Positions 13,133 to 30,539 of a stretch of DNA of 32,184 bases are shown in pieces; within the stretch, counting starts at the first letter, position 1; every line of letters begins with the position of its first letter. The stretch is from Chloroflexota bacterium (GTDB lineage Bacteria > Chloroflexota > Ktedonobacteria > Ktedonobacterales > JADMIN01): positions 1 through 32,184 of the forward strand of contig JAKAIY010000029.1 in NCBI GenBank assembly GCA_021814145.1, written 5' to 3'. The notes below the pieces were generated by a model. The model saw only the letters and a list, made by a program, of their open reading frames with translations, was not told the origin of the DNA and did no database searches. Made by a program: the position numbers and the translations under genes.

Positions 13133-13178
13133 AGCAGCCACAGGGATTGACATAGCACAAGGAGAGGAGCAGTCCGCC

Positions 13179-13824: not shown

Positions 13825-14904
13825 GTGAGTGTGTTTCACGTGAAACATTCATCCGCCACGACGAACGGCGCGCCCCCTTCCGCCCCGCCGCCTGAGGGGA
13901 AAGGGACGCCATCACGCGCGCTCACCATCCTGCGCGCGCTTCGTGTGTCGCAGTGGACCAAGAACGCGCTTGTCGCGCTCGCGGCGCTCTTCTCCCGCCA
14001 GCTCATCCATCCCCCGACGCTCCTGCGTGTCGCCGTGGCCTTCTTCGCCTTCAGCTTCGCCGCCAGCGCCATCTACATCTTCAACGATCTGCGTGACCGC
14101 GAGAGTGACCGCCTCCACCCGACCAAGCGCCGCCGCCCCATCGCCGCCGGACTGCTCAGCGAGCGCGCCGCCGCCATCCTCGGCGCGCTCGCGCTCGCCA
14201 TCAGCCTCGCCCTTACGGGGCTGCTCGCCTCTGGCGCGCTCTATCCAACCGCCGCTCTCCTGCGCGACCCCTTCGCGGCCTATGGCGGCGCGCCATTCCT
14301 CTTTGCCGCTTCGGTCGCCGCCTACCTCGCGCTCAACGTCGCGTACACGCTGCGCCTCAAGCGCCTCGTCCTCTGGGATATCTTCGCCATCGCCCTCGGC
14401 TTCGTTCTGCGGGCGCTTGCTGGCGCTTTCGCCGCCGGAGTCTACATCTCCCCCTGGTTCTACCTCACCGTCATCTTCCTCTCGCTGGTCCTCGCGATTG
14501 GCAAGCGCCGCGCCGAGCTTGTCCGCGCGACCGCCGCCGCCAGCGCCACGAGCCGCCAGCCCGACGAGTCCGGCATGCGCCACGCGCTGCGCGACTACAC
14601 CCTGCCGCTCCTCGACCAGCTCATGGGCGTCGCCGTCACCGGCGCCCTGATAACCTACAGCCTCTACACGTTCCAGGCCGATGCCGCCGGCGGCTCGCTC
14701 CTCATGCTCACCGTCCCCTGCGTCATCTTTGGCGTTTTCCGCTATCTCTACCTCGTCTACGTCCGCGCCCAGGGTGAGGCCCCTGACCGGCTGCTCTTCA
14801 CCGATCCCCAGATTCTCGGCGCCGTCCTCGTCTGCCTGCTCATCATCACCACCGCCCTCTATGGCCCGGCGCTCGGCTCCACGCTCCACCTCACGCGCCC
14901 CTGA
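13825..14904 (+). CDS. UbiA-family prenyltransferase, decaprenyl-phosphate phosphoribosyltransferase-like
   Basis: About 359 residues with eight or nine membrane helices. The first Asp-rich motif is N87-D-x-x-D91-x-x-x-D95-R-x-H-P-x-K-x-x-R-P, the pattern of the DPPR synthase (Rv3806c-like) branch. QWTKN before it and the FYLTVIFLSLVLAIGKRRAE segment after it also fit. Such enzymes transfer 5-phosphoribose to a polyprenyl phosphate, feeding cell-wall arabinose in actinobacteria; in this organism the end use is unknown. No ATG lies upstream of the conserved part. GTG codons at 13825, 13831 and 13840 are candidates, so the parS palindrome (13832-13847) either lies in the first codons (giving FHVKH) or spans the start. 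The ribosome-binding site is weak. Confidence 0.75.
   Translation: MSVFHVKHSSATTNGAPPSAPPPEGKGTPSRALTILRALRVSQWTKNALVALAALFSRQLIHPPTLLRVAVAFFAFSFAASAIYIFNDLRDRESDRLHPTKRRRPIAAGLLSERAAAILGALALAISLALTGLLASGALYPTAALLRDPFAAYGGAPFLFAASVAAYLALNVAYTLRLKRLVLWDIFAIALGFVLRALAGAFAAGVYISPWFYLTVIFLSLVLAIGKRRAELVRATAAASATSRQPDESGMRHALRDYTLPLLDQLMGVAVTGALITYSLYTFQADAAGGSLLMLTVPCVIFGVFRYLYLVYVRAQGEAPDRLLFTDPQILGAVLVCLLIITTALYGPALGSTLHLTRP
13832..13847. promoter_or_regulatory. parS site 1
   Basis: Exact TGTTTCACGTGAAACA, the palindromic ParB-binding parS consensus. It lies 20 bp after the YdjM-like stop and at the 5' edge of the UbiA-family gene. Confidence 0.9.
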
Positions 14905-14944
14905 GGCTGTCGCCCGCGCGCGGCCAGGCCAGCCGTGAGCGCCT

Positions 14945-15673
14945 TTACTGCGCGCGCCCGCCCAGCCGGTAGAGTCTCCACCCGACGGCGAGGAACCAGG
15001 CCGGCAGGAGCAGCCCGTAACCCAGGTAGCCAGCGCCCATGATGGGCCTGAGCGCCTCGCTGACGACACCCAGGACGCCAGTAGCTATGCCGGCATAGGC
15101 GACGCCCTTATGGAAGACGCCCCGCAGCATGAGCAGCGAGAGAATCAGGACGCCAACCGGGGTCAGGATGCCGGGAGGGTTCGGTATGACATTCTGCGCG
15201 ATAAAGCCCTCGGCGGCGGCGGCGAAGGCGGCGCGCTCTTCGTCGGTGGTGGCGGCCTGGTACTGATCGCTCAGGTAGACCAGGCTGGGCGCGCCGCCGC
15301 CGGTCGCCGGCCAGGCTAGCGTGAGCGCCCAGGAGGTCACGCCGGCTACAGCGCCTATCGCGGCGTAGCTCTTGTTCAGCCGCTTGAGCGCGGCGTAGAG
15401 CGACAGGAAGACGACAATGGCGCAGACGCTGGGGCCGTACCACAGGGCCTGCTTGAGGATGTAGAGCTTCCTGTGGGCGGCGATAGAGCGCAGTGTGGCC
15501 ACCCCGCCCGCGTCCGGCTGCCGGGGCGCGCTAAACTCCAGCGCGAGTGACACGGCGATGAGCGCGACGAAGAGCGCCCCCGCGACGCCGCCCGCGCGAT
15601 AAAGCTCCCTCCACGACGGGTCCGGAGAGGTCTCAGCCGCTCCCGGTGATCTTCTTCCTTGCGAAACCGACAT
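14945..15673 (-). CDS. DUF4386-like multi-pass membrane protein
   Basis: A 242-residue protein with about six hydrophobic segments, starting about 30 residues in (GALFVALIAVSLALEF, SVCAIVVFLSLYAAL, AIGAVAGVTSWALTLAWPA, GILTPVGVLILSLLML, AGIATGVLGVVSEAL, LLPAWFLAVGWRLYRLG). Length and layout resemble DUF4386 proteins, whose function is unknown; I hold that family name loosely. The ATG at 15673 has AGAGGAG about ten bases upstream, so the longer frame to 16009 is not used. It is convergent with the UbiA-family gene, 40 bp apart. Confidence 0.65.
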   Translation of the reverse strand: MSVSQGRRSPGAAETSPDPSWRELYRAGGVAGALFVALIAVSLALEFSAPRQPDAGGVATLRSIAAHRKLYILKQALWYGPSVCAIVVFLSLYAALKRLNKSYAAIGAVAGVTSWALTLAWPATGGGAPSLVYLSDQYQAATTDEERAAFAAAAEGFIAQNVIPNPPGILTPVGVLILSLLMLRGVFHKGVAYAGIATGVLGVVSEALRPIMGAGYLGYGLLLPAWFLAVGWRLYRLGGRAQ

Positions 15674-15764
15674 GATGATGCGCTCCTCTGGCGTATCACA
15701 CTTCTTCAGACGGCCGTATCCCCGCGCACATTTGAGTCCAAAGCCGCGGCGCCCATGTGGCGCG

Positions 15765-16277
15765 TCACCGGAGCTCGCAGATGTAGGATAGGGCTGGCTT
15801 GCCGTTGAGCGTGAGCTCACCGACGGCGACAAATCCGTTGTGTTCAAGCGCCTTGCGCGAGGCCGGATTGTCCAGCGTGACCCTTGCGCGCAGCCTGGTG
15901 AGTCCATACGCTGTGGCGGCAAGCTCGCGCGCCTGGCGCACCGCCGCTGTGGCCAGTCCATGCCCGGCGGCCTTCTGCGCGATCCGGTATCCGAGTTCCG
16001 CCGACCCATCCGCCACTTCGTACAGGTTCACCCGCCCCACCACCTCGCCGCGCTCAGTCACCAGCAGATGGAAGTAAGCCGCCCCGGTGGCCTGCAATGC
16101 AAGCAGTTGCGCATGCCGCGCGTCGAACTCAGCAAAGAACTCGTCGCCCCGATCCGGAATAGACGCCGCGAAGTACGCCCGATTCTCCCGCTCGAACGCA
16201 AGCAGGGCTGGCGCGTGATCGAGGCGGAGCAACTGAAGGTCTGGTGTGGGAAGGCGGAGGCGCGGCGGCGATTCCAA
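15765..16277 (-). CDS. GNAT-family N-acetyltransferase (RimJ/RimL-like)
   Basis: The conserved part is a complete RimJ/RimL-type acetyltransferase: RLPTPDLQLLRLDHAPALLA at the N-terminus, EVVGRVNLYEV in the central sheet, ELGYRIAQKAAGHGLATAAV (acetyl-CoA site of the Q/R-x-x-G-x-G/A type), and RLRARVTLDNPASRKALEHN followed by GF near the C-terminus. It should acetylate an amine on a protein N-terminus or small molecule; the substrate is unknown. The start is uncertain. The frame is open back to 16487, but those 70 residues do not look conserved. I use a TTG at 16277, just before the domain, with GGGGAAA nearby, giving 170 residues, normal for the family. Confidence 0.72.
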   Translation of the reverse strand: MESPPRLRLPTPDLQLLRLDHAPALLAFERENRAYFAASIPDRGDEFFAEFDARHAQLLALQATGAAYFHLLVTERGEVVGRVNLYEVADGSAELGYRIAQKAAGHGLATAAVRQARELAATAYGLTRLRARVTLDNPASRKALEHNGFVAVGELTLNGKPALSYICELR

Positions 16278-16617
16278 CCCATTTCCCCTGTCTTCCTTCG
16301 ATTCCGTGTGAGCGGGAAACCCGCCGACGGCCTGCCCACCGAGAAAGGAACGTTCACCGGTCTCAGGCGCGTCTCGTTCGTCTCGTTCTCCCAAGCGCTT
16401 CTTCCTTATGCCCAATGATGATTGGGATGACTGTTCAGCCCCAGGCAGGGTGGAGGGGATGCCAGCAAAGAGCGTATGGCGGCTCATTGAGGAGGGCGGC
16501 GATTTGTTCCTGGCCCGTCATGCCCCTATGCTACACTATGCTGCGACTCCGCCTGGATAGTTCCCCTAAGCCATGACAGGCCCGCTCAAGGAGATGAGCG
16601 CGCCCACCGCCATAATA

Positions 16618-16661
16618 GCGACGCCTGGATGTGTTTCACGTGAAACACGTCCGGGCGTATC
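16618..16661. repeat. 44-bp near-palindrome with a parS core
   Basis: The 18-bp palindrome at 16631-16648 is extended by 13-bp arms. GCGACGCCTGGAT on the left and GTCCGGGCGTATC on the right match at 9 of 13 paired positions, with two of the mismatches G-T wobbles in RNA. As RNA this could form a stem of about 19 pairs. It starts 16 bp after the stop of the peptidase gene at 16678, where a terminator would sit. Confidence 0.55.
16632..16647. promoter_or_regulatory. parS site 2
   Basis: Exact TGTTTCACGTGAAACA, extended to an 18-bp perfect palindrome (16631-16648). It lies 30 bp downstream of the class I amidotransferase-like gene's stop (minus strand). Confidence 0.9.
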
Positions 16662-16677
16662 GCCAGAGGTCGCGCGT

Positions 16678-17412
16678 TCATCCCTCCCGGCAGGCGCGCG
16701 CGAACGCCGCGAAGAGCCTGCGGCTCAGCTCGTCAGTCTCGAACAGCTCCTCGGGGTGATATTGCACCGCCAGGGCGAAGCGGTATGCGGGCAGCTCCAT
16801 CCCCTCCGCCACGCCGTCATCCGCGCGCGCCACGATCCGCACGTCCGCCCCTGGCTCGCGCACGGCCTGATGGTGCAGGCTGTTCACCGCCAGCCGCTCA
16901 GCGCCCAGAATCTCCATCAGCCGCGAGCCAGGCTCCACGACCACCTCATGTGTCCGGGCCGAGCGCGGCAGATGCCCCATCGCGTGCGGATGGGACTCTG
17001 GCCGCTGCGCTTCCAGGTCCTGATAGAGCGTTCCGCCGCGCGCCACATTCAGCGTCTGCATGCCCCGGCAGATGCCCAGCGTCGGCAGGTCGCGGGCCAG
17101 CGCCATGCGGGTCAGCGCCAGCTCCATCGCGTCCCGCTCCGGCTCTAACGGCCCGCAGACCGGCAGCCGCTCCTCGCCATAGCGCGCCGGGTCCAGATCC
17201 TCGCCGCCAGATAGCAGCAGCCCATCCAGCCGCGCGCACACCGACTCCAGCGCCGCGTCATCCATTGGCGGGATCAACAGCGGAGCCAGGCCCACCCCGA
17301 TCAGCGCCTGCGCATACGACTGATTATTGCCGTAGAATAACCGCCCAGACCCCGCGCGCTCGCCAGTGTAGCACGGAATCCCCACGACTGGCGTCCCGCC
17401 ACCAGCGCCCAT
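16678..17412 (-). CDS. class I glutamine amidotransferase-like peptidase C26 (gamma-glutamyl-GABA hydrolase family)
   Basis: A 244-residue soluble hydrolase of the PuuD/peptidase C26 type, expected to cleave a gamma-glutamyl amide bond such as in gamma-Glu-GABA. The nucleophile is Cys115 in LGICRGMQ; His219 and Glu221 in QYHPEE complete the triad. GLLLSGGEDLDPARYGE (from about 64) and SLHHQAV are also typical. AGGAGG lies six bases before the ATG at 17412. Other putrescine-pathway genes are absent, so the true substrate is open. A small hydrophobic ORF (17459-17542) lies 46 bp upstream, and a parS-centred palindrome follows the stop. Confidence 0.85.
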   Translation of the reverse strand: MGAGGGTPVVGIPCYTGERAGSGRLFYGNNQSYAQALIGVGLAPLLIPPMDDAALESVCARLDGLLLSGGEDLDPARYGEERLPVCGPLEPERDAMELALTRMALARDLPTLGICRGMQTLNVARGGTLYQDLEAQRPESHPHAMGHLPRSARTHEVVVEPGSRLMEILGAERLAVNSLHHQAVREPGADVRIVARADDGVAEGMELPAYRFALAVQYHPEELFETDELSRRLFAAFARACREG

Positions 17413-17458
17413 CACACGCCTCCTGTCCGCCTGGACTGTATGTCGTCGCGCGCCTCGC

Positions 17459-17542
17459 TCATTCTCCACGACCCGATGTCATCATCAGCGCCCACACCAG
17501 AAAGAACCAGCCTATCAGCATGCCCAGGACTATGCCCGCCAT
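17459..17542 (-). CDS. possible 27-residue single-membrane-helix peptide
   Basis: The ATG at 17542 opens MAGIVLGMLIGWFFLVWALM, followed by a short polar tail ending SGRGE and a TGA at 17459-17461. The entire middle is one hydrophobic helix of about 20 residues, as in bacterial small membrane proteins. An in-frame TAG lies three codons upstream, so this is the only start. The Shine-Dalgarno site (GGAAGGG, about 13 bases away) is weak. A possible promoter (TTGACC, 20-bp spacer, TATACA, 17599-17630 minus strand) lies upstream and could serve this ORF and the peptidase gene. Confidence 0.35.
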   Translation of the reverse strand: MAGIVLGMLIGWFFLVWALMMTSGRGE

Positions 17543-17693
17543 TGTGCGCTATTCGCCCTTCCAGGACGCGGCTAACCCCCGCCGCGCCTTCTCGTGTCTG
17601 TATATGTTCTGTCATGGCCTCAGCGGTCAAGCTTCCATTACACCTGGCGACGCCCCGCGACGCCCACGGTAACGCGCCCAGCCGCAACAGCCC

Positions 17694-19073
17694 CTATGTC
17701 TTCTTTCGCCGGCGCGGGGACGCTTCGCCCGATGGCGCTTTGCCTGTGGTGGTGTTTCCCCGCTTCCGGGGCGTGGCGGCGGGTGGCGCGGCTCGCCCTC
17801 CCGCGGGAGCCGCGCGCGGCGCGGTCTTTCGCTCCCGCCGTGGCGCGGCGCGCGTCTGTATCCGCGGCTTTCCCGCCTGCCCCGAGGGCGCGTCCAGCAC
17901 TGGCACGATCTTCACCGGCGCCGGGGCTTCCTCCAGCGGCGCTGGCTCTGGCGCGGCGGCCACCTCAACGGGTAGCGCCCCCGGCTCTGGTGATACTGGC
18001 GGCAGCGTGGGAGCTGGAACGCGCGCCTCCACCCGCTCGGCCTCAGCCACGGCTTCAGCCACCGTGCGCGCCTCCACGCGCCGCGCGACCTGCCGTGGGA
18101 TTCGCCGGCCCAGCCAGCGGCGCAGCGCCCCCACGAACAGCTTCGGCTGATCCTGATAGACAGTCGCCCCCGCCGAGAGGATCACCTCCAGGTCGGCCCG
18201 CGGGTTCAGCGCCGCCAGCCGCTCGAGCCGCGCCACCGGCAGCTTCCAGTCGCGCTCGCCGATCACCAGCAGCGTCGGCGGCTCCAGCGTGGGGAACACC
18301 TGCTGGATAGGAAGGTCCAGTTCGCCGGTCATCAGCGCCAGCGCGCCATACTGTCCGCCAAACTGGTGCGCGCTGGCGTAGAGGTGGTCCACCGTCTCGT
18401 CATCCACCTGTCCCGGCCCCACCGCGCTGCGCAGCCCTTCCGCCAGCCGCAGCGCCGGGCGCAGACTCAGCGCGGCGTAAGGTGTCAGCCCCAGCGCCGC
18501 GCGCTGGAACAGCCGCGCCACCACCTGGCCAGCCGCTGGCTCCAGCCGCTCTCCCGCCTCCAGGTATGGCCCCACCAGCGCCAGCCGCTCGAACAGCTCT
18601 GGCGCGTCCGCCGCCGCCCGCGCCGCGATATTCGCCGCCCGCCCGCGCGCGACCACCACCGCTGGCCGCCCTATCACATCGCGCAGGAACCCCACCAGCA
18701 TCCCGGCGTAAAACTCGCCCGTCAGGGTCAGCGGCGGCCGCTCCGACATGCCGAATCCCAGCCAGTCTGGCGCGTAGACGCGATACGTCTCCGCCAGCCG
18801 CTCGTATATCGCCCGGAACTCGTAGTTCGACGCGCCGGGATAGAAATCGTGCAGCAGCGCCAGCGGGACGCCGTCCTCTGGCCCCGCCACCGAATAATAC
18901 ACCTCGCCGCCGTGCTGGCGGTCCAGCCGCCCCTCGCCCGGCAGCCCGCTCTTCAGTGGCTGCGGCGTCATCAGCGCGTGCCGCGCCGTCACCAGCGCCG
19001 CGCCCCCCGCCAGACCCAGACCCACCAGCGCCGCGCCCCGCCGCGCCCCCCGCGCGATCGTTCTCAGTCGCAT
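17694..19073 (-). CDS. alpha/beta-hydrolase-fold pseudoenzyme with a long basic C-terminal tail
   Basis: A 459-residue protein. Residues 13-30 are a membrane anchor or signal segment. Residues about 45-325 have the alpha/beta-hydrolase order: LALLHDFYPGASNYEF, YRVYAPDWLGFGMSERPP, the elbow, a cap, LLVIGERDW, and a final helix ending ALRRWLGRR. The elbow reads VARGRAA (141-147), so Gly replaces the usual Ser of G-x-S-x-G. The usual C-terminal catalytic His region reads GATVYQDQP with no His. Asp275 is kept. It therefore looks catalytically inactive. Residues about 330-459 are Pro/Ala/Glu-rich, then Arg/Lys-rich, ending RRRKKT, and are likely disordered. The ATG at 19073 has GGGGGAA upstream; the longer frame to 19280 is rejected. 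Confidence 0.7.
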   Translation of the reverse strand: MRLRTIARGARRGAALVGLGLAGGAALVTARHALMTPQPLKSGLPGEGRLDRQHGGEVYYSVAGPEDGVPLALLHDFYPGASNYEFRAIYERLAETYRVYAPDWLGFGMSERPPLTLTGEFYAGMLVGFLRDVIGRPAVVVARGRAANIAARAAADAPELFERLALVGPYLEAGERLEPAAGQVVARLFQRAALGLTPYAALSLRPALRLAEGLRSAVGPGQVDDETVDHLYASAHQFGGQYGALALMTGELDLPIQQVFPTLEPPTLLVIGERDWKLPVARLERLAALNPRADLEVILSAGATVYQDQPKLFVGALRRWLGRRIPRQVARRVEARTVAEAVAEAERVEARVPAPTLPPVSPEPGALPVEVAAAPEPAPLEEAPAPVKIVPVLDAPSGQAGKPRIQTRAAPRRERKTAPRAAPAGGRAAPPAATPRKRGNTTTGKAPSGEASPRRRKKT

Positions 19074-19650
19074 CGTCCATTCCCCCGTATCCTCAAAACA
19101 GGAAGATCGGCGCCGGGCGTCTCCCGCCCTCAGGTTATTCACGCCCACATGCGATCGCTGCGCGCGCCGGCCAGCTCCAGCCGCGTCTCCGCATGTCACA
19201 GGCCAGCGAACCAGCTTACTACCACAAACGAGCGACCCTGCTCCCTGGCGCCACCCCTCCCTCCATCGCCCGGTATCCATGCGCTACGCTTTCCTGCTTA
19301 GCGTATCCCAAGATTCACCGCACGCTTCTAGCGCCCGCCTGACTCTTCAGGTACAATAGAGTCGCGAGCCGCGCTGAGTCCCCCAGCTTGCCCACACAAG
19401 GCAGTGTGCCCGTCTCGCGCCACTCCGCGACGGGCGTCCCGCGCGCCCGCCCCGGCGCGACAGGATCCAGCGCACAGGGCGAAGCCGCCCACTCCCAGAC
19501 AGGATAACACTTGCCGCGCCCGCCAGCCCTGTTTCAGGGAGCGCGCGCTGTGAGCGTCGCCGCCCCCATCAAGATGACGAACGACCGGGGGAAGTCAACC
19601 TGAGGACCCATTCACTACGCCCGCTCACCGGCGGAGAAAAGGATAGCGCC
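19074..19650. other. intergenic region between divergent hydrolase-fold genes
   Basis: About 580 bp without a supported gene. It holds a plus-strand -10-like TACAAT (19352-19357), a hairpin in which GCCCGTC...GACGGGC (19408-19435) can extend to about ten pairs with a small bulge, and a short CCCTG-TTT-CAGGG hairpin (19527-19539). It should contain both divergent promoters. Confidence 0.4.
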
Positions 19651-20397
19651 GTGCTGCGAATAACCAAGACCGCCAGCTCCGTACCGACCCACGACCTGAC
19701 CGACACCCGCGAATACCCTCCATCCAACGCTATCTCCCTGACTGTCTCCACTCCGCTCGGCCCCGTTCATGGCCTCTGGCGTCCTTCCATCCGTAACCAC
19801 GCCGCCGTTCTCTTCCTCCCCGGACGTGACAACGCCCTCACTGGCCCCGCTGACCTCTACACCCAGCTCGCCCCCGCTCTCCAGCGCGCCGCCGCTATCG
19901 TCCAGCTAGGCTACCGCCGCCCCGATTCCTTCTCCGATTGCCGCGCCTGTGTCCTCGACACGCTGGACGCGCTCAGCCGCCAGGGCATCGAGCGCGTCGC
20001 CCTCATCGGCTGGGACATCGGGGGAACCGTCGCCATCGCCGCGGGCTCTCAAAGCCCGCTCGTCACAGGCATCGCCTGCCTGGCGCCCGACACGCGCGCC
20101 AGCGACGCCAGCGACCTTGTCGCCGCCACCGCCGCTATCAGCCCGCGCCGCTTCCTGCTCGCCCACGGCTCCGCCGATATGGTCATCCCGCAGAGCGTCT
20201 CGATCCTGCTGCACGCCCAGGCTGGCCATTCCAGCGAGCTTGCCCTCTACATCCGCGAGACTCACGACTTCACGCGCAGCCGCGCCGCCATCCTGCAACG
20301 CCTTACCCTCTGGACCACTGCCCTCCTGCGCACGCCGTTCAAGCCTGGCCGCCCCACCGGTGCCTATCCGCGCCCGATCCTCGCCGCCAGCCGCTAA
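19651..20397 (+). CDS. dienelactone-hydrolase-like alpha/beta-hydrolase with Asp at the nucleophile position
   Basis: A 248-residue soluble protein, the only plus-strand gene between 15 and 28.8 kb. GLWRPSIRNHAAVLFLPGRD forms the first strands. The elbow is VALIGWDIGG with Asp122 where serine hydrolases have Ser and dienelactone hydrolases have Cys. The acid is Asp176 in HGSADMVIP and the base His205 in ETHDF. An Asp-Asp-His arrangement is that of haloalkane dehalogenases and epoxide hydrolases, yet overall length and layout are closer to the dienelactone-hydrolase group. The GTG start at 19651 has AAAAGGA seven bases upstream. The substrate is unknown. Confidence 0.75.
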   Translation: MLRITKTASSVPTHDLTDTREYPPSNAISLTVSTPLGPVHGLWRPSIRNHAAVLFLPGRDNALTGPADLYTQLAPALQRAAAIVQLGYRRPDSFSDCRACVLDTLDALSRQGIERVALIGWDIGGTVAIAAGSQSPLVTGIACLAPDTRASDASDLVAATAAISPRRFLLAHGSADMVIPQSVSILLHAQAGHSSELALYIRETHDFTRSRAAILQRLTLWTTALLRTPFKPGRPTGAYPRPILAASR

Positions 20398-20441
20398 CCG
20401 CCTGCCCGTCCAGTCTCCCGCCGCGACAGAAGGTCATCTGG

Positions 20442-20457
20442 TGTTTCACGTGAAACA
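20442..20457. promoter_or_regulatory. parS site 3
   Basis: Exact TGTTTCACGTGAAACA between convergent genes, 44 bp after the hydrolase stop at 20397 and 18 bp before a perfect 15-bp hairpin. Confidence 0.9.
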
Positions 20458-20475
20458 TCCACTGGCCCACAACAA

Positions 20476-20517
20476 GGCCATCCCGCCGCCAACATCCATA
20501 TCGGCGGCGGGATGGCC
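20476..20517. terminator. perfect 15-bp hairpin between convergent genes
   Basis: GGCCATCCCGCCGCC (20476-20490) pairs with GGCGGCGGGATGGCC (20503-20517) around a 12-nt loop. It lies between the ends of genes at 20397 (plus) and 20561 (minus), as expected of a two-way terminator. Only the minus-strand exit is T-containing (TTGTTG). Confidence 0.55.
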
Positions 20518-20560
20518 CACGCGAGCGTGAACGGCGCTGGACGCGACGCGCCACGCGCCG

Positions 20561-20938
20561 TCATCCGCCGAGCAGCTTCGCCTTCGCCGCCGCGAACTCC
20601 TCATCGGTCAGCAACCCCGCCTGCCTCATCTGGCCGAGCTGCGTCAACTGCGTCATGATATCCGGCGCAGCAGGCGACGCCGGAGCCGCTGGAGGCTGCT
20701 GCGCCTGCTGCGCCGCCATCTGCCGCTTCATCTGCTCTATGTCCATCTGCTGCTGGGACGCCTGCTGTTGAGCGGCCGCCTGTTGCTCGGCTTCCATCTG
20801 CCGCTGCTCCGCCTTCGCGTCCATCGAGCCGCTCACGCCCTTCGCCACAGCCGTCGCCGTTCCCGCGACCACCGCCGTGCGCGCCACCGTGCCGACCAGG
20901 CCAGGTCCGCGTCGCACCACCGCGCGCCGTCTCATCAT
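20561..20938 (-). CDS. SHOCT-domain protein
   Basis: A 125-residue protein. A basic N-terminus and a weak hydrophobic segment (GTVARTAVVAGTATAVAKGV) are followed by a Gln/Ala/Met-rich coiled-coil-like stretch (about 40-80), a Pro/Ala linker, and a C-terminal SHOCT motif (ITQLGQMRQAGLLTDEEF-type, residues about 94-124, ending AKLLGG). SHOCT is a short oligomerisation-type helix pair. ATGs at 20938 and 20935 are both possible; GAGG is closer to the ideal distance for 20935. It is 66 bp downstream of the DUF6325 gene on the same strand, a pairing I recall from other Gram-positive-like genomes. Function unknown. Confidence 0.75.
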   Translation of the reverse strand: MMRRRAVVRRGPGLVGTVARTAVVAGTATAVAKGVSGSMDAKAEQRQMEAEQQAAAQQQASQQQMDIEQMKRQMAAQQAQQPPAAPASPAAPDIMTQLTQLGQMRQAGLLTDEEFAAAKAKLLGG

Positions 20939-21004
20939 GGCCTCATCACCCGCTTTCTCATATTCCGCGCCGCATGAGGCTTATCTCACGCATGCGCCCG
21001 CTTT

Positions 21005-21481
21005 TCAGAAGGTCGCTTCCATTCGCGGCCCTGCCTCGGCTTCAGGGGGGACAGGCGGCGCGGCCTCTTTCGCCCGCAGCGCCTCCTCGATCACCGGGCG
21101 CGGGATGCGCTCGATCCGCTCGACCTTGCCGTGCGCTCGCAGCATCGCGTCCACGAACTGCTTCGCCCAGAGGTTCTCGAACAGCATCGCCGCCAGGGTC
21201 GTGTTCGGCGGCGCCCCTTCCGCCAGCTCACGGATGTCATCCTCCGCGATCAGCCCCGACACCTCCGACACCAGCGGGTCGAGCGCGGCGTAGCTCGCCT
21301 CGTCCAGACTGTCCATCTCTATTCCTGTCACGGCGCCATCCGCTGACTTCTGAATAAAGACCAGGTCTATCACCCGAATCACGCCTGAATCCACCAGGTT
21401 CCGCAGCGCCGGCGCGATCTCGCCCTTGAACTGCGTTCCCGGAAATGACACAACCAACAACTCGACTGGCCCCAGCTCCAT
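21005..21481 (-). CDS. DUF6325 family protein
   Basis: A 158-residue soluble protein beginning MELGPVELLVVSFPGTQF, with the family's pattern of an opening strand, a helix (IAPALRNLVDSGVIRVIDL), a strand FIQKSADG, an acidic loop, and two long helices rich in Ala and Glu (ELAEGAPPNTTLAAMLFENL, then FVDAMLRAHGKV). Function is not known; members are often placed next to SHOCT proteins, as here. AGGAGG lies seven bases before the ATG at 21481. The longer frame to 21562 is not supported. A parS site lies 130 bp upstream of its start. Confidence 0.75.
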   Translation of the reverse strand: MELGPVELLVVSFPGTQFKGEIAPALRNLVDSGVIRVIDLVFIQKSADGAVTGIEMDSLDEASYAALDPLVSEVSGLIAEDDIRELAEGAPPNTTLAAMLFENLWAKQFVDAMLRAHGKVERIERIPRPVIEEALRAKEAAPPVPPEAEAGPRMEATF

Positions 21482-21611
21482 TGTGCGCCTCCTGTCTACA
21501 CGCCTGTTCTGGCCGCTCAAACAGATCGAGCGCCATGGAACAGAGCTCTCCGTATATCCCATCAGAAGCGCAACAACTATGCCAGCGCGCCCACTTCATG
21601 CCGCCCTTGGA

Positions 21612-21627
21612 TGTTTCACGTGAAACA
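21612..21627. promoter_or_regulatory. parS site 4
   Basis: Exact TGTTTCACGTGAAACA, only nine bp after the stop of the HTH/TPR gene (minus strand, 21637) and upstream of the DUF6325 gene, so it lies in that gene's probable promoter region. Confidence 0.9.
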
Positions 21628-21636
21628 CGCGCCACA

Positions 21637-23118
21637 TCACCCCTGCGCGCGGCGGAGACCCAGCGCCCGGAGCGCCGCCACCCGTGTATCCTCAAGCTTG
21701 CTCGCAAAGGCGGGATACAGCGTCCCGACCAGCGGAGCCAGCGCCTCAGCCGCCGCCAGCGCCTCAGCCGCGTCCAGCCACACGAGCGTCTGGGCGATGG
21801 AGAGCCGCGTCACGACCTCATGCGCCGCCCACTGCTGGTGAGTCTGCGCCAGCGAGCGCAGCAGCGTGTCGCGCGCCTGATCCGCGAGCGCCCGGCGGGC
21901 GTATGGCGGCAGGCCCGGCAGGCCCGCCAGCCGTTTGTAGCCCTCGCCCTCGGAGTAGGTGATGAGGCCGTACAGCTCATCCCGCATATCACCCGGCAGC
22001 CGCGCGATCACGCCGCGCGCGGCGTCGAGGTCCGCCTTCCAGCGCCGCTCATCGCCCCGGGCCGCCCAGACATGCGCCCGGTTGCGGTGGAGGTGGACCG
22101 CCAGCGCCAGGTCTTCCTCGCGCTCCATGCGCTGCCGCAGCGCGTAATCATATTGCCAGATACTCTCGTCGAACGCGTTGAGCTCGCGGTAGAGTGGCGC
22201 CGTGCGCTCGTAGAGCTGCGCCATCTCATGGCTGACCTCGCCGGGGGCCGCGCGGGTCAGCAGGGCGTCGCGCGCGCGCTCGTACCAGCCGATGGTCGCC
22301 GCCCGCTGTCCTTTCCAGGGAATCAGCTGCTCCTGAAGCGTCGCCAGCATGAAGTCATAGCGGAAGCTGACGCCGCGCGCCTGTGTGTCCCGCTCCAGCG
22401 CGCGGGCGCGGCGAATCAGCGCCCCCAGCTCCGCCGCCTGCGCCGCCGCCCACGCCTCACGCGGGCGGCCCTGCTCGCGCAGCCGCTCCACATTGGCGAT
22501 CAGCGCCCCGATCTCGTCGAAATCCAGCCGGCGCGTCCGCAGCATGGGGGGCGCGCCGAGGCTGAGCGCCAGCGCGCCAGCGGCGGCGAGGCGGAGCAAC
22601 TCCCGACGGCGCATAGAGCCCTCATCCAGACCAATCGCGTCACATACCGCTTCGATGCGCAGCCGCGAGCGCGCGACCGCGCCATTGAGGAAACGGGTGA
22701 CGGTCGCTGGCGCGACACGCAGCCGTCGCGCCAGCTCCCTGGCGGAAACGCGCCGCCGCCGCAACTCGGCCCGGAGCAGCGCGGCCAGCTCTTCGCGCGC
22801 CTGCCCAGAAGACCGGGTGTCCTCGCCGCCGCGCCCGGCCGTTGGGGCGGGAAGAAAGCCAATCGGCGGAGAAGCCGCCAGCCGCGCGCTCAGCCGCTCC
22901 CGGTCGGCGCCGGTAACTTCCAGCGCATCCCAGAGCGCGTCCAGCGAGAAAGCCGCCGTGGCGCGCGATTCACCATCGAGCCAGCGGCGCAGCGTTGAGC
23001 GGGCGACGCCCAGCCGCGCCGCCAGCGCGGTGATCCCGACACCGCGCGCCCGCATTCCCTCGTAGATGACCTCCGCGCGCTCCGTCCTGGGCGCGCCGGG
23101 CCGTCTGCCACGCCGCAT
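21637..23118 (-). CDS. two-HTH regulator with TPR-like C-terminal domain
   Basis: A 493-residue protein. The first helix-turn-helix is at about 27-68 (GITALAARLGVARSTLRRWL), the second at about 124-163 (VSARELARRLRVAPATVTRF). A short hydrophobic stretch follows (RRELLRLAAAGALALSLGAP, about 172-190). The rest, about 300 residues, is all-helical and reads like degenerate TPR units (ANVERLREQGRPREAWAAAQ; HLHRNRAHVWAARGDERRW). XRE-HTH plus TPR proteins bind DNA and sense peptides or partners in many bacteria; Ktedonobacteria have several with this hydrophobic linker. Whether that linker spans the membrane is unclear. The ATG at 23118 has GGAGAGG about 14 bases upstream. Target genes are unknown. 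Confidence 0.75.
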   Translation of the reverse strand: MRRGRRPGAPRTERAEVIYEGMRARGVGITALAARLGVARSTLRRWLDGESRATAAFSLDALWDALEVTGADRERLSARLAASPPIGFLPAPTAGRGGEDTRSSGQAREELAALLRAELRRRRVSARELARRLRVAPATVTRFLNGAVARSRLRIEAVCDAIGLDEGSMRRRELLRLAAAGALALSLGAPPMLRTRRLDFDEIGALIANVERLREQGRPREAWAAAQAAELGALIRRARALERDTQARGVSFRYDFMLATLQEQLIPWKGQRAATIGWYERARDALLTRAAPGEVSHEMAQLYERTAPLYRELNAFDESIWQYDYALRQRMEREEDLALAVHLHRNRAHVWAARGDERRWKADLDAARGVIARLPGDMRDELYGLITYSEGEGYKRLAGLPGLPPYARRALADQARDTLLRSLAQTHQQWAAHEVVTRLSIAQTLVWLDAAEALAAAEALAPLVGTLYPAFASKLEDTRVAALRALGLRRAQG

Positions 23119-23206
23119 GCGCCGTTTCCCATCCTCTCCGCCACAAACGGGAGCGTTCTGAGCGGACGGGGGCGCGCGGAAACATCCTGGCGCGGCATGC
23201 TGGGCG

Positions 23207-23593
23207 TCAGCGTCGCTCTATGCGCTCCCCAGCGACCGGCGTCACGCTCACACCTTCTACGCGCATCGGATTGATGAGTTCCAGCAAGGCGACGGAGACT
23301 TCGGACTCGATCCAGAAGCGGAGCCAGCGCCCGTCGCGCTCGCCGTCCAGGCCGGGTGGCTCAGGGGCCTGAATCACCACAGTGACGTGATGCCCCAGGC
23401 GTGCGCGCCCGTTCCACTCGCGCTCCTCAACGCTCACCACGACCCGCGTCACGCTTGCTCCCGGCAGGCTGTGATCGAGGACGCGCGAGGCGCATGCGCG
23501 CACCGCCTCTTCCGCGTCACCGGCCATCGCGCCAGCTCCCAGCTCGGACCCTGTCTCAGGCCCCCAGATCTCCAGAGTCACCAGGTATGACAT
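23207..23593 (-). CDS. small conserved-looking protein of unknown function
   Basis: A 128-residue soluble protein starting MSYLVTLEIWG. It alternates strand-like segments (VTRVVVSVEER, HHVTVVIQAP, LRFWIESEVSVALLELI) with one helix (AEEAVRACASRVLDHSL), a small alpha/beta layout. GGAGG lies seven bases before the ATG at 23593, better than the ATG at 23599 that overlaps it. It lies between the regulator and parS site 5. I recognise no family. Confidence 0.6.
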   Translation of the reverse strand: MSYLVTLEIWGPETGSELGAGAMAGDAEEAVRACASRVLDHSLPGASVTRVVVSVEEREWNGRARLGHHVTVVIQAPEPPGLDGERDGRWLRFWIESEVSVALLELINPMRVEGVSVTPVAGERIERR

Positions 23594-23748
23594 GCGCATC
23601 CCTCCGCATCCGCTGAGTGGGGCGCGCGGTGGGGGCCATCCCCGCCATGTCGCGCCTCGCGCCCAGTGTCGGAGAAGCGGCGGGTGTTGCGCTTGCGCGC
23701 CAAAATCATCCGCTGGCTGACCGGGCGGAAGTGGCGCGAAGGCTACTG

Positions 23749-23764
23749 TGTTTCACGTGAAACA
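23749..23764. promoter_or_regulatory. parS site 5
   Basis: Exact TGTTTCACGTGAAACA within a 20-bp perfect palindrome (23747-23766). It lies 17 bp beyond the terminator hairpin of the DapA-family gene and 155 bp upstream of the gene at 23593. Confidence 0.9.
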
Positions 23765-23776
23765 CACGCCAGCGCG

Positions 23777-23817
23777 AAAAAGCCGGTCCTCACGGGGGGC
23801 ATCCCGTGAGGACCGGC
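23777..23817 (-). terminator. Rho-independent terminator of the M20/DapA operon
   Basis: GCCGGTCCTCACGGG (23782-23796) pairs perfectly with CCCGTGAGGACCGGC (23803-23817), a 15-bp stem with a six-base loop. On the minus strand it is followed at once by TTTTT (23777-23781). It lies 35 bp after the DapA-family stop. It is the clearest intrinsic terminator in the window. Confidence 0.9.
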
Positions 23818-23852
23818 GCTGAATAACGTGTGAACAATCCAGCGGATCGCGG

Positions 23853-24791
23853 TCAGGAGATAGCCTTCTCAGGGCGCATGGCGTTGAGCAGATCGGCGGC
23901 GGCGAGGAGCGAGCGCAGGCGGACACGCTCCCCCTCGCCAAGTGGCGCGAGGGGCCGGCGCGGCTCGCCGCCATAGTGGGCGATAAGGGTGAGCGCGGCC
24001 TTGAGGCCCGCCACGCCATAGCCCGACGTGACCGCGGTATTGACCGAAATGAGACGGGCCTGAAGCGCCCGCGCCTCCGCCAGGTCGCCACGCTCAAACA
24101 GCTCGACCAGCCGCAGGCACTCGCGCGGGGCGATGTTGGCGAGCGCCGCGATGGCGCCCTTCGCCCCGACGACCATCGCCGGCAGCAGGAATCCCGCGCT
24201 GCCCGCCAGGACGGTGAAGTCCTCGCGCGCCCCAGCGGCGATCTCGGCCATCTTCGTCACATTGCCCGAGCTATCCTTCATCCCGATGATATTGGGATGA
24301 ACCGAGAGCGCGATCACCGTCTCGGCGTCGAGGTCCACGCCCGCGGCGTTGGCTGGCATATTGTAGATCATCACCGGCAGCGGGCTCGCGTCCGCGACCG
24401 CGAGGAAATGCGCCCGCTGCACAGCCATGCCCATCTTGCCGCCGTAATGGCTGGGCGGCAGAACCAGCGCCACATCGGCGCCCGCCTCTGACGCCAGCCG
24501 GCAGAGCGCCACCGTCTCGCGCGTGGACTGGCCGCCCGCCCCGGCCAGGATCTGCGCGCCGGAGCCCGCCGCCTCGCGGATCGCGGCGATCACCGCGCGC
24601 CGCTCGTCGAGGTCGAGATGAATGGCCTCACCGTTCGAACCGAGAGCGACGAAGTTGGTGATCCCCTTCTCGCGCAGGCGGGTGATATGCCGCCGCTGCG
24701 TCTCCAGATTCAGCGACTCATCCTCATGGAAGAAGGTAGGGACGGGTGGGTAAACACCGCCGATGCGGAGCGTGTCCGTCCGTTCGCTCAT
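23853..24791 (-). CDS. DapA-family (beta/alpha)8 aldolase/lyase
   Basis: A 312-residue class I aldolase of the dihydrodipicolinate synthase/N-acetylneuraminate lyase family. The Schiff-base lysine is Lys172 in IIGMKDSSGN and the catalytic Tyr is Tyr143 in MIYNMPANA. The substrate loop reads LGSNGEAIHLDLDER, where true DapA has GTTGES; GSNGE is typical of the 4-hydroxy-2-oxoglutarate aldolase-like branch. A catabolic aldolase is therefore more likely than lysine biosynthesis. The ATG overlaps the stop of the M20 peptidase gene by four bases and has AGGAGG six bases upstream, so the two are co-translated. A strong terminator follows. Confidence 0.85.
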   Translation of the reverse strand: MSERTDTLRIGGVYPPVPTFFHEDESLNLETQRRHITRLREKGITNFVALGSNGEAIHLDLDERRAVIAAIREAAGSGAQILAGAGGQSTRETVALCRLASEAGADVALVLPPSHYGGKMGMAVQRAHFLAVADASPLPVMIYNMPANAAGVDLDAETVIALSVHPNIIGMKDSSGNVTKMAEIAAGAREDFTVLAGSAGFLLPAMVVGAKGAIAALANIAPRECLRLVELFERGDLAEARALQARLISVNTAVTSGYGVAGLKAALTLIAHYGGEPRRPLAPLGEGERVRLRSLLAAADLLNAMRPEKAIS

Positions 24792-26317
24792 GAGCGGCCT
24801 CCTGGTGTTTTGGCGGGCTTCTTCGCGGCGGGCTTCTTCGCGCCGCCAGCGCCATTGGCAGGGCGGGCGCCCGCTGACGCCATGCGACTGGGGCGAGCCA
24901 GCACAGCGGGGTCCTGGCCAAGGATGTCGAAGTAGCGGACCGTCTGGCGGATGCCGTGATAATAGTTCGGCAGGTGATATTTCTCGTTGGGCGCGTGTAT
25001 GTTGTCATCCGGTAGGCCGGTGCCCATAATCACGACCGCGGCGTGCAGGACTTTGTCGAAGAGCGCGGCGATGGGGATCGAGCCACCCTCGCGCTCGAAG
25101 ACCGGCTCGCGGCCCCACTCCTGCTCCAGCGCCCGCTCCGCCGCGCGCACGTAGACGCTATCCAGCGGGACATGGACGCCATCGCCGCCGTGGATCTCGC
25201 GCACCGTCATCGTGACGCCGGGCGGGCAAAGCTCCGCGACGCGCTTCTTCAGCAGCGGCAGCACCTCAGCGGGTGGGAGCTCTGGCGGCAGGCGCAGGCT
25301 GACCTTGGCGACCGCGACCGCCGGGATCACCGTCTTGGCGCCCTCATCCACGAAGCCGCCGCGAATGCCGTGGACATCGAGCGTGGGGCGGGCGCCGACG
25401 CGCTCGCGGAGATCAACGTCCTGCTCGCCGGGCAGCGTATCCACACCCATCTCCTGCTTGAAGAGGGCGGCCATGTCAATAGGGCTGCGCTTCCACATGG
25501 CGCGCTCCTCCTCGGTGATGGGGATGAGCCGCTCGTAGAGCTCCGGGATGGTGATGCGCCCGTCGGCGCCCTTGAGGCCAGCCAGGACCAGCGCCAGCGC
25601 GTGGATCGGGTTGGGGGCGACGCCGCCAAACGTGCCGGAGTGCAGATCGCTCTTGGCGCCCCGGGCCTCGATCTCGGTGTAGAGAATGCCGCGCAGGCCG
25701 TAGATCAGCGAGGGAACGCCGGGCGCGGGCATGTGCGTATCAGCGATATAGGCCACATCGCAGGCAAGCTCGTCGGGGTGCTCCCGAACATAGGTCGCGA
25801 TGCTCTCGCCGCCGGCCTCTTCCTCGCCCTCGATCAGCAGCCGCACGTTGACGGGCAGCTTGCCATGTGCGCGCATGAGGGCCTCAATCCCCTTGACGAG
25901 GCTGAGCGTCTGGCCCTTGTCGTCCACCGCGCCACGGGCGTAGACATTGTTATCGCGGACCTCCGGCTCGAAGGGATCACTGGTCCACAGCTCGATGGGG
26001 TCCGCCGGCTGCACGTCATAATGCCCATAGAGCAGCACGGTGGGCTTGCCCTTGGCTTCCAGCCATTCGCCATAGACGAGGGGGTGGAAAGCGGTCTTGA
26101 TGACCTTGACCCGCTTCAGGCCCGCCTCCTCCATCTGCTTCGCGAGGTACGCCGCCGCCTTGCGCACATCATTGCGGCGCGCGGGCAGCGTGCTGATGCT
26201 GGGGATGCGCAGAAATCCGAAGAGGTCATCCAGGAACTGCCGCTGATGCGAGTCTACATAGGCGAGCGCCGCCTCAACCGAAGAGGTCGCGGAGGCGGAT
26301 GATGAATCAGTGCTCAT
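24788..26317 (-). CDS. M20 family (CNDP-like) dipeptidase with a Lys/Ala/Pro tail
   Basis: A 509-residue dinuclear zinc peptidase. Metal and catalytic residues are visible: H99 in LLYGHYDVQP, D132 in RGAVDDKGQ, EGEEE at about 163-167, an Asp in YIADTHM, and a His near the end in DDNIHAPNEKYH. The lid domain (about 210-370) has SDLHSGTFGG, typical of the carnosinase/CNDP branch. It should remove residues from dipeptides in the cytoplasm. The last 25 residues form a Lys/Ala/Pro tail (AKKPAAKKPAKTPGG) unlike the family norm. It is first in a two-gene operon with the DapA-family gene. AAAGGA lies about 11 bases before the ATG. Confidence 0.85.
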   Translation of the reverse strand: MSTDSSSASATSSVEAALAYVDSHQRQFLDDLFGFLRIPSISTLPARRNDVRKAAAYLAKQMEEAGLKRVKVIKTAFHPLVYGEWLEAKGKPTVLLYGHYDVQPADPIELWTSDPFEPEVRDNNVYARGAVDDKGQTLSLVKGIEALMRAHGKLPVNVRLLIEGEEEAGGESIATYVREHPDELACDVAYIADTHMPAPGVPSLIYGLRGILYTEIEARGAKSDLHSGTFGGVAPNPIHALALVLAGLKGADGRITIPELYERLIPITEEERAMWKRSPIDMAALFKQEMGVDTLPGEQDVDLRERVGARPTLDVHGIRGGFVDEGAKTVIPAVAVAKVSLRLPPELPPAEVLPLLKKRVAELCPPGVTMTVREIHGGDGVHVPLDSVYVRAAERALEQEWGREPVFEREGGSIPIAALFDKVLHAAVVIMGTGLPDDNIHAPNEKYHLPNYYHGIRQTVRYFDILGQDPAVLARPSRMASAGARPANGAGGAKKPAAKKPAKTPGGRS

Positions 26318-26610
26318 CGGTGATCCGGTCCTTTGTGTTGCCGTCTAGCATGCCGCGCTACAAAGTCCGCGCAATGAAGGGCGCTGATGTTCAGGGCGCT
26401 TCTTGGGAACGCCTGGTCACACCAGCGACGTAAGTGGAGGAGGGCGACTGGCGAAAAGGCAGCGCCCCACGTCCGGCGCAGGCGGCGGGAGGCTGTGAGC
26501 GCCGGGCGGCACGTTGATCGTATCAGGCGACGCGGCGGATGTCCAGCGTAGCGGAGAGCGATAGCGAGCGGGCGCCATCATTCGCGCCCGCGCGGCGAAA
26601 CGGCTGGCCA

Positions 26611-26642
26611 GCGGATGCTGTTTCACGTGAAACAACATCCGC
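26611..26642. repeat. 32-bp near-perfect palindrome with a parS core
   Basis: The parS palindrome is extended by arms GCGGATG (26611-26617) and CATCCGC (26636-26642). The only unpaired position is C26618/A26635. It lies 20 bp after the murJ stop codon (minus strand), so the transcript could fold into a terminator-like hairpin. Confidence 0.75.
26619..26634. promoter_or_regulatory. parS site 6
   Basis: Exact TGTTTCACGTGAAACA, 28 bp downstream of the murJ stop and the centre of the 32-bp near-palindrome. Confidence 0.9.
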
Positions 26643-26662: not shown

Positions 26663-28765
26663 CTAGCGGCCCCGGCGCAGGAACCGGCCCAGCAGGCGGT
26701 CAAACGGCAGGACGTTCTCTATGCGCAGGAAGCGCGCGATGATGAAATACGCCCCTCCCCCCGCGACGAGCGCGATGGACAGGCGGGCGATCAGCTTGAG
26801 CATCTCGATATGGGAGTAGACAGAGCTGGTGGGCAGCAGCAATTCAACGAAGAGATAGACCAGCGCGGCGGCCAGGACGGCGAAGGCGCTGGCGGCCAGA
26901 ACCTTGATGGTAAAGAAGCCGAGCTCCTTGAGGTCGAGGCCCGCCATCTCCTGACGCAGCAGCAGGAACATGACGAGCGCCTCCCCCAGCCAGGCGATGC
27001 TGGAGGCGAGCGCGATGCCTGAGGCGCCCCACGGCTCCAGCAGGATGCTCATGCCAATCACAAACATGAACTGGAGGATGCTGACCTGGGTGGGAGTGCG
27101 CGTATTCTCGAGCGCGTAGAACGAGCGGGTGAGGATCTCGACCAGGGAGAGGCCGGTGAGGCCAATGGCGAAGAAGATCAGCGGGTTATAGACGGTGGGC
27201 AGCTTGGTAGGGTCGAAGTTGTGGTAGTCGAGCAGCGCGCGGGAGATTGGCCTGGCGAAGACGATCAGGCCGAGCGAGGCGGGAATGGCGAGGAACAGGA
27301 TCGCCTGAATCGAGCGCAGCACGTTCTGGCGCAGACGGTCCCACTCGCCAGCGGAGACGAGCGTCGAGAGCGTCGGGAATGCGGCCTGGGCGAGCGCCAT
27401 GCCAATCACCCCGTTGGGAAGCTGAATAAGCGAGAACGCGGTATTATAGCCAGTCAGCACGCCCGCCGCGGCCAGGCCAGTGAGCAGGAAGCGGTTGATA
27501 AAGACCGAAGCGTAGAGAACGGTCGCGTTGAGGACACGCGGCCCCATCAGGCGCGCGATCTCGATAACGCCGGGATGGCTCACGCTGATGGCGGGCGTGT
27601 ACTGCATCTTGGCGCGGACCAGCCCGGGAATCTGGATGAGGAACTGGAGTACGGCGCCAACGACGACGCCCCAGGTGGGGCCATAGATGCCCAGGTTGCC
27701 GCCAAACACGCCATAGCTCTTATCCAGCAGGGAGGCGCCAATGCCGCCGATGATGGTCACGGTGTAGACGACCTGGCCGATGGCGGGCGTGACAAAGGAC
27801 TGGCGCGCTTGAAGGAGGGCGATGGCGACGGTGGCCCCGCCGAGGAAGATCGGCTGGAGCAGCATGATGCGGGTGAGCTGGACGGCGAGCGGGCCGTAGC
27901 AGCCCTCAGCGCCACAGTTGGCGAAGATGTCGCCGAACGCGAGGCGCATGATCGGCTCGGTGAAGATGATCGCGATGATACAGAACGCGACAAGCGCGAT
28001 CATCGCGGTGTTGAGGGCCATGCTGGCGACGCGCCAGGCCGTCGCGCGGTCTTTGCGGCGGACCATATAGTCGTTGAAGACCGGGATGATCGCGGAAGCG
28101 AGCGCGCCGCCCGCGACGATGTTGAAGATCGCGTCGGGCAGGGTAAAGGCGAGCGTGTAGGCGTCAGTCGTGGCGCCGTAGTTGAACGTGGCGGCGAAGA
28201 GTGAGGTGCGCAGCAGGCCAAAGACACGGCTGATGAGCAGCGCGGCGGAGACAATGGTGGTGGCGCGGATCAGCGTGCTGGAGCGCATCGCGGCGAGATG
28301 CATCGAGGGCTGATCGTCTACCTCGACGCCAGCCCGCGCGGCGATCACTCCGCTGGCGCCCGGCGGTGGCGCGGCGCTGGTCCCGGCTGAGCCAGCTCGG
28401 GGGGCGCGCAGGCCGCGGCTCCAGGAGCCGCCGGGACGCAGCGGCGGAAGAGCGGCGATCTTGCCTGTGCCGGTGTAGTCCTGCACGCTCATGCCTGAAA
28501 AGGAGCGCTCGACGAGCGATTCCATATAGGGATTGTTGAGCAGGGCGTCCTCAGGCTGAGGCTGGCGGGCGTCGGGCGGCACGGGCCAGAGGCCGCTGTC
28601 GCGCTCCCAGGGAGGATTGAGGTCTTCGGCGCTTTCACGCTCGCGCCGGGAGGACCCGTTTTGGGAGGACGGCGTGGGCCAAGGCGGAGAAGCGGGCTGC
28701 GCAACGCCATCCTGGCTTCCCTGGCCGCTCGCGGGAGGTTTGCGCCATCTATTGATCTGATCCAA
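26663..28765 (-). CDS. murJ: MurJ lipid II flippase with a disordered N-terminal extension
   Basis: A 700-residue MviN/MurJ protein, the membrane flippase that moves lipid II across the membrane for peptidoglycan synthesis. The core starts at about residue 155 (STLIRATTIVSAALLISRVF and GLLRTSLFAATF) and has about 14 membrane helices, with the family segments DAYTLAFTLPDAIFNIVAGG, SLIQLPNGVIGMALAQAAFP and RSFYALENTRTP. A normal MurJ has about 510 residues. The extra 155 at the N-terminus are Pro/Ser/Gln-rich, then Gly/Ala-rich, with no helix. The start is probably the TTG at 28765 (GGAG just upstream); an internal start such as the ATG of MSVQDYTG is possible. A good promoter lies at 28846-28874. 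Confidence 0.88.
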   Translation of the reverse strand: MDQINRWRKPPASGQGSQDGVAQPASPPWPTPSSQNGSSRRERESAEDLNPPWERDSGLWPVPPDARQPQPEDALLNNPYMESLVERSFSGMSVQDYTGTGKIAALPPLRPGGSWSRGLRAPRAGSAGTSAAPPPGASGVIAARAGVEVDDQPSMHLAAMRSSTLIRATTIVSAALLISRVFGLLRTSLFAATFNYGATTDAYTLAFTLPDAIFNIVAGGALASAIIPVFNDYMVRRKDRATAWRVASMALNTAMIALVAFCIIAIIFTEPIMRLAFGDIFANCGAEGCYGPLAVQLTRIMLLQPIFLGGATVAIALLQARQSFVTPAIGQVVYTVTIIGGIGASLLDKSYGVFGGNLGIYGPTWGVVVGAVLQFLIQIPGLVRAKMQYTPAISVSHPGVIEIARLMGPRVLNATVLYASVFINRFLLTGLAAAGVLTGYNTAFSLIQLPNGVIGMALAQAAFPTLSTLVSAGEWDRLRQNVLRSIQAILFLAIPASLGLIVFARPISRALLDYHNFDPTKLPTVYNPLIFFAIGLTGLSLVEILTRSFYALENTRTPTQVSILQFMFVIGMSILLEPWGASGIALASSIAWLGEALVMFLLLRQEMAGLDLKELGFFTIKVLAASAFAVLAAALVYLFVELLLPTSSVYSHIEMLKLIARLSIALVAGGGAYFIIARFLRIENVLPFDRLLGRFLRRGR

Positions 28766-30450: not shown

Positions 30451-30539
30451 AGTGGCGGCTCCTCCTGGCGAGGCGATTGAAGGATGCGCGGCCTCGAATG
30501 CATGAAGCGGCTGGCGCGCGGTCGCCTTGGGCAATCGGT

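Follow-up and report, generated by a model that had tools for sequence, protein, structure and literature searches.

Six identical palindromes lie between the genes of a DNA stretch that has none of the usual origin genes, raising the question of whether they form a chromosomal centromere and, if so, where the replication origin lies. The stretch (the window, all 32,184 nucleotides that were analyzed) comes from the Ktedonobacterales, a large and little-studied group of soil bacteria that are multicellular and produce antibiotics. Bacteria separate newly copied chromosomes by means of docking sites called parS, and dnaA, dnaN, and parAB normally accompany the replication start and the centromere, an association that is common but does not define parS. 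A previous sequence-only reading had taken the palindromes for ParB-bound parS sites marking a segregation center near oriC. It had also found no parA, parB, dnaA, or gyr gene in the window, and none is present among the window's annotated proteins.

The window is one entire contig, C80, of a 3.93-Mb MAG in 246 contigs that is about 92% complete, with an estimated contamination of 5.24%. Many of the best homologues of C80 genes belong to the same genus, at 62–82% identity. Homologues of murJ at 68–69% identity are found in two Ktedonobacterales MAG contigs (L037 and L038). A TPR-protein gene at 31112–32184 carries 120-bp repeats (7.5 copies, 83% match) and runs to the contig end; these repeats are the likely reason for the assembly break there.

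Six identical palindromes in a single cluster

A 16-mer scan recovered TGTTTCACGTGAAACA in six exact copies (0 mismatches), all at the positions claimed for it (Table 1). No seventh site resembling it was found in the window, even when up to three mismatches were allowed, and shuffled controls of the window held a mean of 0.03 sites. With the base composition of the window, exact copies are expected by chance at 5e-7 per window and 7e-5 per genome, in line with the earlier estimate of far below one match per 10,000 windows. We therefore rejected a chance origin on the expected counts and the shuffles; the clustering goes beyond chance. No other palindromic 16-mer occurs more than once in the window.

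The sites are not scattered around the genome. All exact copies in the 3.93-Mb assembly are the six in the window, within 12.8 kb; elsewhere, on other contigs, there are one site with a single mismatch (C117:1025) and two with two mismatches, and a reversed-pattern control gave no match in the whole genome. All six sites are intergenic, whereas a 16-mer fits between genes at only ~12–15% of positions (p about 1e-5 or less, a value that rests on gene calls made in this analysis). The flanks of the six sites are unrelated and identity ends at 16 bp; on this ground we rejected duplication of a longer repeat as their source. In a congener, G001 (contig C92, locus L054), parS is likewise sited between murJ and the M20 peptidase gene.

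Table 1. Positions of the parS sites and of nearby genes in the window
Feature	Position	Strand	Setting or homologues
parS site 1	13832..13847	.	Intergenic, exact 16-mer; between YdjM-like gene (13005-13811 +) and UbiA prenyltransferase gene
parS site 2	16632..16647	.	Intergenic, exact 16-mer; between GNAT gene (15765-16487 -) and peptidase C26 gene (16678-17469 -)
parS site 3	20442..20457	.	Intergenic, exact 16-mer; between hydrolase gene (19651-20397 +) and SHOCT gene (20561-20938 -)
parS site 4	21612..21627	.	Intergenic, exact 16-mer; between DUF6325 gene (21005-21562 -) and HTH-protein gene (21637-23118 -)
parS site 5	23749..23764	.	Intergenic, exact 16-mer; between ORF 23207-23599 (-) and DHDPS-family gene (23853-24791 -)
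parS site 6	26619..26634	.	Intergenic, exact 16-mer; between M20 peptidase gene and murJ
M20-family peptidase gene	24788..26317	-	Homologues close to parS sites in G001, G006, G009
murJ (lipid II flippase)	26663..28765	-	Homologues 21-23 kb from oriC in G005, about 11 kb in G039
sipS, signal peptidase S26	29129..29740	+	Homologue 20 kb from DnaA-box cluster in G005
Uncharacterized protein, no Pfam hit	29737..30534	-	Homologue (56% over 249 aa) 2.4 kb from main G013 DnaA-box cluster

A single ParB predicted to read parS

The genome encodes a single ParB, located on contig C72 (TIGR00180, 1.7e-48), so that the chromosomal ParB expected by the sequence-only reading does exist. The protein bears a GERRWRA motif (CTP-binding), and its gene overlaps parA, an ORF with the ParA-type Walker motif KGGVGKTT. 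When aligned with ParB and Noc chains of solved structure, the protein has Arg and Gly at the positions equivalent to residues 173 and 201 of Caulobacter ParB. Arg-173 and Gly-201 are absolutely conserved in ParB, whereas Noc has Gln and Arg there (Jalal et al., PMC7383237). Judged by these residues, the protein is of the parS-reading type and not of the Noc type, and together with the overlapping parA this supports the claim that the palindromes are parS sites that ParB would bind.

Noc belongs to a related protein family, and its NBS palindrome is nearly identical to parS, from which it differs at two bases only (PMC7383237). No NBS-like site (ATTTCCCGGGAAAT) was found in the window, and the ParB carries Arg/Gly in place of Gln/Arg. 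We therefore rejected a Noc/NBS identity for the sites.

parS arrays lie beside DnaA-box clusters in relatives

We searched 61 genomes for parS; GC skew was sampled and then read finely in three well-assembled chromosomes (G044, G039, and G038). Sites within one mismatch of parS occur in 46 of the 61, and most relatives that have sites carry compact arrays. An array 7–50 kb from a DnaA-box cluster was found in 12 relatives: three belong to the window's own family, eight to a sister family, and one to a second family.

In the three finely read chromosomes, which belong to the sister family, GC skew turns from negative to positive beside the parS array. The DnaA-box clusters at this skew minimum (G044, 24 boxes at 7.354 Mb; G039, 24 at 2.654 Mb; G038, 15 at 0.735 Mb) span about 700 bp and are AT-rich (37–38% GC), and the nearest array site lies 12–24 kb away. 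In these chromosomes the cluster sits just upstream of dnaG-rpoD; G014, G022, G024, G041, and G042 likewise have pairs of DnaA boxes upstream of dnaG and parS close by. Across the sister family, the distance from the cluster to the nearest parS site is shortest in G014 (about 7 kb) and longest in G038 (about 24 kb). In G051, a complete but more distantly related Chloroflexota genome, no clear skew and no clear DnaA-box cluster were seen; it thus counts neither for nor against this arrangement.

The parS complement varies among the relatives. G041 has an unusually large array: its genome contains 41 sites when one mismatch is allowed, and the majority of those listed are on its contig C30 at 32.5–64.1 kb, about 15–47 kb from the DnaA-box cluster. 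In family f3, ParB is present in all four genomes tested (G012, G015, G017, and G019), and no canonical parS, even with one mismatch allowed, occurs in G012, G015, G017, G021, or G023, while G019 has one site; this family may use a divergent parS or a different loading site.

The probable origin in the window's own family and genome

A looser DnaA-box motif, typical of GC-rich genomes, showed the clusters of the window's own family more fully. Three genomes of this family carry the parS array and a DnaA-box cluster on one contig, 19–46 kb (G006), 33–49 kb (G004), and 38–88 kb (G005) apart. In G005 and G006, dnaG is near parB and away from the DnaA-box cluster. In G013, from another family, the cluster lies 37–41 kb from parS and is abutted by a signal peptidase S26 gene. 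Beyond its compact array on contig C34, G013 carries isolated exact parS sites, 11 in all (L157–L167), that are spread over eight further contigs; these lie mostly within ORFs and have unrelated flanks, so no single repeated element accounts for them.

The window itself contains no DnaA-box cluster, which led us to reject an oriC inside it. Its own genome has one dense cluster, on contig C197, with 12 boxes at 10.29–10.80 kb and two more by 11.05 kb; six of the 30 tandem DnaA-box pairs hit in a genome scan are on C197, and any other contig has at most two. The gene neighbors of this cluster gave no match to those around the origins of the relatives. C80 and C197 are separate contigs in the MAG, and we infer that they are adjacent in the chromosome.

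Several indirect signs suggest that the window lies beside its own origin. GC skew is −0.113 over 13.0–26.6 kb and +0.074 over 26.6–32.2 kb, and the cumulative skew reaches its minimum near 24–26 kb, beside parS site 6; this pattern could partly reflect gene orientation. The flip falls next to murJ and sipS, and the ORF at 29737–30534 has its homologue near a DnaA-box cluster (Table 1). Because array, DnaA boxes, and skew minimum coincide in the relatives and the window's skew flips beside murJ-sipS, the array is most likely an origin-proximal centromere. Very probably, then, a Ktedonobacterales chromosome has its parS array, or bacterial centromere, at these six sites, with the replication origin a few tens of kilobases away. 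The proposal of a segregation center near oriC thus holds in the relatives, where array, boxes, and skew minimum fall within tens of kilobases, and in the window's own genome it depends on the predicted junction of C80 and C197.

A centromere rearranged away from oriC in this species, and so no longer marking the origin, is an improbable alternative, although C80 and C197 are unjoined, the gene order around parS differs between genera, and G004, G005, and G006, like G013, show a weak or noisy skew. It would have to be reconciled with the three own-family genomes in which a single contig carries both array and DnaA-box cluster, 19–49 kb apart, and with the local skew flip and origin-side genes of the window.

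dnaA, dnaN, and parAB are dispersed

No canonical dnaA-dnaN-parAB-oriC cluster was found. In the window's own MAG, parB (C72), dnaA (C233), and dnaN (C219) are on separate contigs. In contiguous chromosomes of the sister family, dnaN, both full-length dnaA genes, and parAB lie 0.06–1.6 Mb from oriC (Table 2), and we rejected an oriC adjoining dnaA or dnaN for these genomes. In the own-family genome G005, 17 kb of a 20-kb segment (contig C1, 253000–272999; L058) consists of N; such long runs mark it as a scaffold, so its megabase-scale distances and order are soft. The absence of parAB, dnaA, and gyr from the window is real and looks order-wide rather than peculiar to the window.

Table 2. Distances (Mb) of dnaA, dnaN, and parB from the DnaA-box cluster in relatives
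Genome	dnaA	dnaN	parB	Remark
G039	0.64 and 0.89	0.45	0.12	
G044	0.49 and 1.56	0.87	0.33	
G038	0.74 and 1.27	0.54	0.06	dnaA at 1.27 measured around the circle
G024	0.60 and 0.88	0.40	0.16	dnaA at 0.60 split, two frames
G042	0.38 and 1.02	0.42	0.34	
G005	0.32 and 1.92	1.21	0.84	Own-family scaffold; distances soft

All five relatives examined closely (G005, G006, G038, G039, and G044) encode two full-length DnaA proteins (loci L060, L070, L151, L152, L132, L136, L101, L110, L086, and L088). The paralogues share roughly 40–60% identity, and both retain ATPase motifs together with a box-binding signature of the GRDH[ST]T type. In the contiguous genomes, oriC is distant from both genes; in the window's own MAG, which is about 92% complete, one DnaA was seen. 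The position of dnaA is a poor origin marker in this group: the public chromosome record of G038 begins at dnaA, whereas the predicted oriC is 0.74 Mb away. From these data we tentatively propose, with slightly less than even confidence, that the Ktedonobacterales origin neighborhood is broken up, with oriC and the parS array kept together (in one family beside dnaG-rpoD) and two diverged full-length dnaA genes, dnaN, and parAB spread over 1–2 Mb.

Comparison with the published chromosome architecture

We found no study of parS in Ktedonobacteria in the openly licensed full-text literature. The available portion of a study of Ktedonobacteria chromosomes (PMC13289182, mSystems 2026) reports a skew V and a predicted ori, and describes dnaA/dnaN as colocalized with parA/parB in a contiguous locus; parS does not come up in it. 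It covers the same chromosomes as ours, those of Dictyobacter aurantiacus, Tengunoibacter tsumagoiensis, and D. vulcani, for which we take G039, G038, and G024, respectively (the names are inferred), and the skew V is common to both analyses. The gene positions differ: the locus is contiguous there, whereas we find dnaA, dnaN, and parB hundreds of kilobases apart. Our data do not support the contiguous-locus statement at gene scale; the statement may have been made at the scale of chromosome plots.

According to the same portion of PMC13289182, Ktedonobacteria have secondary replicons of 1.6–3.5 Mb, from which ParB is reported to be absent. The window, without dnaA or parAB, could in principle derive from such a megaplasmid or chromid, as in Dictyobacter, instead of the main chromosome. 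We consider this very unlikely, because the window carries housekeeping genes (murJ, sipS, and a phosphofructokinase gene), the genome has a single ParB when such replicons reportedly lack one, and homologous arrays sit at the skew minimum of main chromosomes. Furthermore, the secondary replicons of G039, G038, and G024 (contig C2, described as chromid-like) contain no exact parS, suggesting that parS separates the chromosome from the secondary replicon.

It is just as unlikely that C80 is a contaminant in the bin from another Ktedonobacterales organism. The contamination estimate leaves room for one, but C80 holds the only parS cluster of the bin, which matches the single ParB, and many of its best homologues are from the same genus; even if C80 were foreign, the reading of the array would be unchanged. 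Finally, a dispersed or mobile repeat, or the operator of another regulator such as Noc, might produce six identical intergenic palindromes, several of them near a gene start or end, but this is negligibly probable given the unrelated flanks beyond 16 bp, the lack of NBS-like sites in the window, the parS-type residues of the one ParB/Noc-family protein found, and the recurrence of arrays at the origins of relatives.

Relation to known ParABS systems and implications

As a chromosomal parS array, the cluster resembles well-known systems. Bacillus subtilis Spo0J/parS and Streptomyces coelicolor ParB/parS have the same 16-bp consensus in several clustered sites, which lie near oriC there as they probably do here, and chromosomal ParABS systems, like the genome studied here, have one Spo0J-type chromosomal ParB with a ParA. 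Unlike in those systems, parAB and dnaA/dnaN lie away from the array and oriC, 0.06–1.6 Mb off in the relatives. By analogy with the mechanism worked out in well-studied ParABS systems (PMC7333895), ParB dimers encoded on C72 would load at the individual palindromes, where they would close into CTP-dependent clamps and then spread along the adjoining DNA. The six sites in 13 kb would join as one nucleoprotein complex, which ParA would move poleward and which would load or recruit SMC. It is on this analogy that we propose ParB binding, spreading, and segregation at the sites. The sites and their genomic setting are what we observed, and binding is what the analogy predicts. The array is thus ordinary in kind; what makes it noteworthy is that, across the order, the origin genes usually found around it are dispersed.

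These results provide a sequence-defined predicted centromere and origin for the Ktedonobacterales, so that origin labeling, ParB imaging, and marker-frequency mapping can now be designed. The dispersal calls into question the published contiguous dnaA/dnaN/parAB locus. If the broken-up arrangement is correct, the synthesis of DnaA and ParB need not take place close to the origin, and the two DnaA paralogues may split initiation roles between them.
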